Below are positions 34,296 to 34,835 of a stretch of 37,558 bases of DNA, piece after piece. The stretch is from Parcubacteria group bacterium. GTDB lineage: Bacteria > Patescibacteriota > Patescibacteriia > UBA9934 > GWF2-40-263. The notes below the pieces were generated by a model that was not told where the DNA came from, did not search any database, and saw only the letters and a program-made list of their open reading frames with translations. The DNA lies in assembly GCA_013204395.1 (NCBI GenBank), contig JABMNZ010000011.1, positions 1-37,558 on the forward strand, written 5' to 3'. The first letter of the stretch is position 1. Each line of letters opens with the position of its first letter. The position numbers and the translations under genes were made by a program.

Positions 34296-34370
34296 TGGCA
34301 GGGGTGCAGGGATTCGAACCCTGAATGAGGGTTTTGGAGACCCTAGTGATAGCCATTTCACTACACCCCT
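34296..34370 (-). tRNA. trnW: tRNA-Trp (anticodon CCA), 3' CCA encoded
   Basis: AGGGGTGTAGTGAAATGGCTATCACTAGGGTCTCCAAAACCCTCATTCAGGGTTCGAATCCCTGCACCCCTGCCA folds as a cloverleaf. Confidence 0.95.
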
Positions 34371-34620
34371 ATTTATTCAGCCCAATCCGTTTCAATAAAA
34401 GCTTGTAAGCAGATCCATACTGCTTCAACATTCGTTCACGTCTCTTTGCTTGGACCTCATCAAGATAAGCTTCGTAGTACACCAGTCGCCATGGACGATA
34501 TCGACGTGTGTAATAAACCTTGCCTTGATGATGTTCAAACAATCGTCTTTTCAAGTCGGAAGAATAACCGATGTAGAAATGAGTATCTGATTCGCTTTTT
34601 AAAAGATAGACATAGTACAT
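34369..34620 (-). CDS. GIY-YIG nuclease-domain protein
   Basis: MYYVYLLKSESDTHFYIGYSSDLKRRLFEHHQGK...YRPWRLVYYE; stop codon TAG overlaps the tRNA-Trp 5' end. Confidence 0.9.
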   Translation of the reverse strand: MYYVYLLKSESDTHFYIGYSSDLKRRLFEHHQGKVYYTRRYRPWRLVYYEAYLDEVQAKRRERMLKQYGSAYKLLLKRIGLNK

Positions 34621-34742
34621 AAAGGGTTTTGGATCCCGCCTATGGTCTACCACGGTCTTTTGTTAACCACTGGACGGAGCCGGAGGCGCCTAGCGGCTTT
34701 CTTCGTGGGGTTCAAGAAATATGTCTTTGACCATGGGCTGGA

Positions 34743-34780
34743 TGGAGACCCTAGTGATAGCCATTTCACTACACCCCTAT
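34743..34780 (-). repeat. Duplicate of the tRNA-Trp 5' half (38 bp, identical to 34335-34372)
   Basis: TGGAGACCCTAGTGATAGCCATTTCACTACACCCCTAT present at both positions. Confidence 0.95.
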
Positions 34781-34835
34781 GGATAACTGTCCGCGGGCAT
34801 TATACAGGATTTGGCCTTTCTGGAAAGACCTATCA

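Follow-up and report, generated by a model that had tools for sequence, protein, structure and literature searches.

Small GIY-YIG nuclease genes lodged at tRNA genes of Patescibacteria look like an undescribed form of host-sparing selfish DNA

The tRNA-Trp locus of the window (the whole 37,558-nucleotide stretch of DNA that was analysed, from the 1.1-Mb draft genome G000) probably belongs to a recurrent class of selfish GIY-YIG genes that lie at tRNA genes, with one intact tRNA being kept. Such tRNA-lodged genes, present in tiny uncultured bacteria and in one or more further phyla, look like an undescribed form of host-sparing selfish DNA. They are best read as selfish GIY-YIG elements that specialise in tRNA genes, which would be related in logic to SegB, described in PMC13096335 as a GIY-YIG endonuclease of T-even phages that cuts inside tRNA genes and drives the amplification of tandem tRNA-nuclease segments.

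All features of the locus are on the minus strand. One intact tRNA-Trp(CCA) was called by ARAGORN (34296-34370), and the 38-bp repeat TGGAGACCCTAGTGATAGCCATTTCACTACACCCCTAT was located in exact copies at 34335-34372 and 34743-34780, with a spacing of 408 bp and a GIY-YIG ORF in between, confirming the original prediction that an exact copy of the tRNA-Trp 5' half accompanies such an ORF. The copy at 34335-34372 belongs to the intact tRNA and is its regenerated 5' half, while that at 34743-34780 contains a leader of 2 nt plus tRNA nt 1-36 and forms the first block of an orphan 5' part. Local alignment of the upstream flank against the tRNA scored 28.6 SD above shuffled sequences. The earlier statement that identity ends at A36 holds for the ungapped repeat only, as the tRNA sequence resumes in a second block, TCCAAAACCCT (nt 33-43, 34633-34623), after a 109-nt insert (34742-34634). 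The orphan therefore spans tRNA nt 1-43, with the insert breaking it in the anticodon loop. TCCA is repeated on either side of the insert as a 4-bp duplication, corresponding to the first four nt of the second block, and between the end of TCCAAAACCCT and the nuclease gene there is TT, followed by the ATG at 34620. The predicted TATAAT box upstream of the orphan half lies at 34804-34799 (TGTATAAT); the same motif immediately precedes the uninterrupted tRNA-Trp in the same-genus genome G001, and it is the -10 box of the original tRNA-Trp promoter, now 5' of the orphan.

The ORF between the repeat copies matches PF01541 (E-value 1.6e-13, 51 bits). Comparison with 35 relatives pointed to the ATG at 34620 as the conserved start, giving a single-domain protein of 83 aa (34369-34620); an alternative GTG start at 34653 (94 aa) falls within the 109-bp insert. 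The TAG stop codon overlaps the 5' end of the intact tRNA by 2 nt, as had been proposed. No site-specific recombinase was found in the 408-bp unit, whose sole coding content is the GIY-YIG ORF, and the unit was not classed as an integrase-type tRNA-targeting element. A search for Rfam introns in the window stretch and in 20 element loci gave only tRNA above the gathering score, and group I and group II introns were ruled out there, no catalytic intron RNA being present.

Two further copies of the 109-bp palindrome inserted in the orphan were found in G000, both directly 3' of a tRNA CCA. One follows tRNA-Thr(CGT) (about C9:54-167, 87% identical; the contig start cuts the tRNA), and the other is located directly after tRNA-Gly(TCC) and before tRNA-Pro (C12:9724-9832). 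TCCA flanks all three G000 copies, and GTGA flanks the copy in the orphan of G029. A covariance model detected the palindrome in six of the 43 genomes of the family, with the G033 copy again after a tRNA-Thr CCA. Judging from where its copies lie, the palindrome is a mobile element that prefers tRNA ends, which the anticodon loop of tRNA-Trp (CTCCA) resembles. Weaker relatives are intergenic, with no tRNAs, in G012, G026 and G062 (L183-L185, L188, L189 and L193), and because the relatives in genus g12 lie away from tRNAs, the preference is not absolute. The earlier idea that the nuclease-bearing unit entered at the anticodon loop was not supported in that form, since the loop contains this separate mobile palindrome and the GIY-YIG gene begins after nt 43; insertion points also differ among relatives, at about tRNA nt 7-36.

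An empty site was found in G001, a genome of the same genus, where the promoter flank TCCTGTATAATGCCCGCGGA directly joins an uninterrupted, identical tRNA-Trp. Since this flank meets a whole tRNA, the orphan of the window stands at the ancestral promoter, in agreement with the claim that the orphan half next to the promoter is the original one. By this comparison the window locus has gained 408 bp; loss in G001 is less likely than gain because the tRNA-Trp genes of G005 and G031 are uninterrupted as well. The expected relatives with an uninterrupted tRNA thus exist in G001, G005 and G031, and the G001 site, sharing the promoter flank, supports the proposal that a nuclease-bearing unit was inserted and that a second 5' part preserves the complete tRNA. 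Patchy presence with uninterrupted alleles in relatives is also a characteristic of SegB-type free-standing endonucleases.

PF01541 was present in all 43 family genomes. Every listed small GIY-YIG locus of the family was retrieved, and 117 distinct domains were collected over the loci. Among the 106 family loci reached through the PF01541 search, excluding those first found with the tRNA-Trp query, 55 had a tRNA on the same strand within 250 bp and one had a tRNA on the opposite strand. In the rest of the phylum the corresponding figures were 27 and one of 75 loci, in a sample partly picked towards genomes rich in GIY-YIG genes. Adjacency by chance was estimated at a few per cent, from roughly 34 tRNAs per 1.1 Mb, and both samples show the association with tRNA genes that characterises SegB-type endonucleases. 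No orphan was detectable at some of the tRNA-adjacent loci (e.g. L109, L110 and L130). Recurrence of the layout, as anticipated, was found at many tRNAs in the family, in the wider Patescibacteria and in Bacteroidota.

The most direct counterparts of the window locus, here called layout A, have the order promoter, orphan 5' part, GIY-YIG ORF and intact tRNA, and the orphan is broken by a GC-rich hairpin past which the tRNA sequence resumes. Within the family, layout A was found at tRNA-Trp (the window, L032 and L024), tRNA-Glu (L066, L002, L081 and L134) and tRNA-Asn (L122, L119, L098 and L127), and at single loci of tRNA-Thr (L077), tRNA-Ile (L085), tRNA-Ser (L107) and tRNA-Ala (L118). A short tRNA-Trp piece is present in L015, which belongs to the same order, and in L202, a locus of Candidatus Uhrbacteria bacterium GW2011_GWF2_39_13; the family genome G061 seems to be the one that holds L202, as the coordinates of the PF01541 matches agree. 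Elsewhere in Patescibacteria the layout occurs at tRNA-Lys (L240), Ser (L269), Arg (L241), Asp (L223), Ala (L271), Cys (L214), Pro (L273) and Gly (L268), with orphans that score above all 40 shuffles. In Bacteroidota it was found at a tRNA-Leu (L284), whose hairpin CTGTCTGCCGACAGG is shared with the tRNA-Gly locus L268. Folding was better than for shuffled sequences in most of the 23 hairpins. In 36 of 42 cases the end of the GIY-YIG ORF lies no more than 30 nt from the start of the tRNA, and in nine loci, including L004 of the layout B described below, the overlap is exactly 10 nt, so that tRNA nt 8-10 serve as the stop codon. In L099 and L095 (both tRNA-Ser), L107 and L227 the GIY-YIG frame extends 36-53 nt past the start of the downstream tRNA gene.

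A mirror arrangement, layout A', has the order intact tRNA, GIY-YIG ORF, hairpin and orphan 3' part ending at the CCA. It is represented in the family by tRNA-Ala (L060 and L079) and tRNA-Arg (L094 and L128), the latter pair having a short stretch from the stop codon to the orphan, in which any hairpin is putative, and beyond the family by tRNA-Ser (L255) and the Bacteroidota tRNA-Val loci L286 and L300, in which the terminator is duplicated too. Tandem units composed of a tRNA-His 3' end, a terminator and a GIY-YIG start were observed in L288 (G143, Bacteroidota).

In layout B a palindrome starts directly after the tRNA CCA and the GIY-YIG gene is located about 80-360 bp further on; CCA-adjacent palindromes occur with or without a GIY-YIG gene. 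The palindrome families track GIY-YIG clades, not tRNA identity: family CCGAGCTGAGCTCGG was found at Met, Gly, Trp and Asp tRNAs, and family CGTAAAAACAC...GTGTTTTTACG at Asp and Met. Among copies of the CGTAAAAACAC family whose match begins with the first query bases and that adjoin an intact tRNA, seven of seven begin at precisely position +1 from the tRNA end (Asp, Met, Ser and Ala tRNAs), while other weak or short matches do not start there. One palindrome family of G000 is confined to three places, all immediately 3' of a tRNA CCA, namely a tRNA-Leu with three tandem copies, a tRNA-Ala and a tRNA end with a GIY-YIG gene. The tandem copies (L166, C27:39151-39481) directly follow tRNA-Leu(TAA), with no GIY-YIG gene.

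The window protein is predicted by AlphaFold to form one confident domain (pLDDT 93.9), and no recognisable extra DNA-binding domain was found in it. The invariant catalytic columns (Y, Y-G, R, H, E and K) are kept in the 35 relatives, as expected of a SegB-type GIY-YIG domain. By sequence and fold the nearest solved structures are the UPF0213 protein BH0048 (1ZG2), then Slx1, and the window protein, like UPF0213 and Slx1, consists of a single GIY-YIG fold. Slx1 acts with Slx4 on branched DNA. The Slx1-like fold, together with the hairpins, suggests that the window enzyme may cut cloverleaf or palindrome DNA in a structure-specific manner.

A tree of 109 GIY-YIG proteins (single gene, 104 columns, many forks weak) required 38 changes when labelled by side plus isoacceptor, compared with a mean of 58.6 for shuffled labels, and none of 200 shuffles was as low. 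Its D_Glu and D_Trp groups span genera. In the same weakly forked tree the window protein groups with tRNA-linked proteins and outside the UPF0213 clade, so that its membership of UPF0213 was rejected; in these genomes the UPF0213-like relatives make up a clade of their own and, unlike the window protein, are not tRNA-adjacent. The 'YVYILTN' group is not beside tRNAs either. This separate and numerous clade of small GIY-YIG genes ('YVYILTN..VLYIGVTNN'; G025, G013, G007, G035 and others) was never tRNA-adjacent in our sample. A phage origin of the window protein was discarded, the best phage matches being just 36-40% identical and the match in Rhizobium phage RHph_Y65 not lying beside an annotated tRNA.

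Under the preferred reading of a selfish element, the nuclease would cut tRNA genes, and recombinational repair would leave, in a SegB-like manner, a partial duplication of the same tRNA around the nuclease gene. The original promoter precedes the orphan, the ORF and the tRNA in that order, suggesting that the nuclease ORF is read from the tRNA promoter; the intact tRNA would follow the ORF in the same transcript and could be freed by RNase P. The element may then spread among alleles of the same isoacceptor by homing, through recombination between shared tRNA halves. The palindromes that follow nuclease clades, marking the broken side of the orphan or adjoining the CCA, probably move with the help of the nuclease. 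We tentatively extend this to a two-component mobile system dedicated to tRNA genes, a proposal to which we give somewhat less than an even chance: each palindrome family in Patescibacteria and Bacteroidota would depend for its movement on a small structure-specific GIY-YIG nuclease of its own, with insertion exactly after the CCA or within the gene followed by tRNA-duplicating repair, and enzyme-less palindromes would be non-autonomous passengers.

Several observations count against the selfish-element reading, among them the tRNA-adjacent loci at which no orphan was detected, the intergenic relatives of the window's palindrome in genus g12, and the match between orphan and intact copies taken up below. 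An intact tRNA with the presumed target remains beside the nuclease gene, and would be exposed unless the nuclease recognises the part disrupted by the insertion or its expression is restrained. In addition, isoacceptor specificity has no visible basis in the window protein, which has no recognisable DNA-binding domain beyond its nuclease fold.

The second tRNA part has another origin under a strict form of donor-carried homing, in which the element, like endonuclease elements of fungal mitochondria, brings the replacement end (here the 5' half) from a donor, and cuts at the anticodon loop. The overall geometry is the same as in the fungal elements (PMC3630166), isoacceptor-specific GIY-YIG clades extend across genera, and so do homologous junctions, with the hairpin after tRNA-Glu nt 35 in both L002 and L081 and the same hairpin after tRNA-Asn nt 20 in both L122 and L119. 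However, a donor-supplied half, as in the original prediction, should give an orphan and an intact copy of different origin, and orphans show 0-1 mismatches to their own neighbouring tRNA in 11 of 12 cases (four in L119). The match to the own tRNA was never worse than that to the tRNA of another genome, being closest or tied. The variable insertion points (about nt 7-36) also count against this model, and the inserted ends of fungal elements are clearly divergent from the native ones. Local duplication in the course of break repair, or conversion at a later time, is therefore the best explanation of the second tRNA part, and as the orphan and intact copies match each other, there is no direct sign of transfer between distant lineages. 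We consider donor-carried homing unlikely, and membership among the fungal-type elements with a divergent donor-derived end was rejected on the same matches.

Also quite unlikely is that the nuclease is a non-causal passenger, having landed between tandem tRNA duplications of which the upstream copy decayed and gathered hairpins. Some orphans are indeed nearly whole decayed tRNAs (up to nt 65 in L024 and nt 61 in L077), and the GIY-YIG gene itself is decaying in L202, L015 and L108, but passive hitch-hiking does not account for an intervening gene that is repeatedly of the GIY-YIG type, on the tRNA strand and close to the tRNA 5' end (36 of 42 within 30 nt), for GIY-YIG clades that follow isoacceptors and palindromes, or for palindromes that begin exactly at the CCA. 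The overlap of ORF and tRNA, with its stop codon at tRNA nt 8-10 in several loci, could instead point to a domesticated cassette, in which a GIY-YIG protein, translated from the tRNA transcript, targets tRNA or hairpins in RNA and adjusts the supply of tRNA; as RNase P would remove the stop codon, translation and tRNA maturation would compete. Patchy presence, empty sites and pseudogenised copies are at odds with a conserved host function, making such a role very improbable. Finally, contig ends do fall in tRNAs in the draft G000 (e.g. L164 and L172), but an assembly artefact of repeated tRNA sequence is hardly credible: the layout recurs inside long contigs of other genomes (368 kb in G022 C1) and in a single-contig genome (G090, 700 kb), with sequences that differ per genome, and the artefact reading of the 38-bp copy was rejected on this recurrence.

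Short mobile palindromes are known from REP/RAYT systems, double-hairpin elements and Rickettsia palindromic elements. In REP/RAYT systems a family-specific enzyme gene adjoins its palindrome and enzyme-less copies exist in addition, and here too palindrome families follow enzyme clades and occur without the enzyme. The REP/RAYT enzyme, however, is an HUH protein, whereas the linked enzyme here is a GIY-YIG nuclease; with no HUH (Y1) transposase as the recurrent linked gene, REP/RAYT membership was rejected. Unlike all three kinds of element, several of the present families are located inside tRNA pieces or precisely at the 3' end of a tRNA. If the nucleases move the palindromes, this would be a new kind of system. 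Since tRNA genes serve as docking sites for integrases and group I introns, the elements would add a third, much smaller way of exploiting them, with a nuclease of ~83 aa.

SegB and its T-even kin are free-standing GIY-YIG genes beside tRNA genes of many isotypes (PMC13096335, PMC2988022), as are the genes described here. SegB is reported in phage tRNA clusters, whereas the present genes are in cellular chromosomes and encode a single domain of ~83 aa; they also differ from it in that the nuclease lies between a hairpin-marked orphan part and an intact tRNA, and in that GIY-linked palindromes abut the CCA. Endonuclease elements of fungal mitochondria carry replacement gene ends (Allomyces atp6; Glomus atp6, atp9, cox2 and nad3), one of them with a GIY-YIG enzyme (PMC3630166). 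As here, a gene is broken by an endonuclease ORF, its function is preserved by a second copy of the gene end and the native end is orphaned, but those elements affect mitochondrial protein genes and bring a divergent donor-derived end (PMC3630166), whereas the present ones affect either end of bacterial tRNA genes and have nearly identical copies. GIY-YIG insertion sequences outside recognised introns have been described in CPR rRNA genes (PMC11270868), which likewise places GIY-YIG ORFs in stable-RNA genes of CPR bacteria; these are sparse, are placed by their authors outside homing spread, and involve no tRNA genes or regenerated halves (PMC11270868).

In the literature searched, which included few subscription papers, no account was found of GIY-YIG genes associated with the tRNA genes of either Patescibacteria or Bacteroidota. 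As no paper was found, the layout appears to be new in bacteria, with phage SegB and the fungal mitochondrial replacement-end elements as the nearest known systems. These genes are common throughout the reduced patescibacterial genomes. Small GIY-YIG genes there usually have no assigned role, and the present reading gives them a testable function. It also suggests an origin for tRNA-like fragments and palindromes beside tRNAs, connects cellular genomes with the biology of phage SegB, and offers a minimal system for how a nuclease distinguishes one isoacceptor gene from another.

Some loci had unusual features. An odd tRNA-Trp 5' sequence (AGGGGCGTGATGT...) is present in L029, L031, L032 and L202, which belong to different genera, and is unlike that of their congeners. 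This 5' half (G023 and G033; also G029 and L202) was considered as a co-conversion footprint and rejected, since the difference extends past the anticodon. In L032 (G029 C8) one tRNA-Trp lies between two GIY-YIG genes, with layout A upstream and layout B downstream. In L127 (G020 C1, about 1440-1825 in the oriented locus) a hairpin-interrupted tRNA-Asn orphan is found on either side of the GIY-YIG gene, before the intact tRNA, and this locus looks like a nested or duplicated element.
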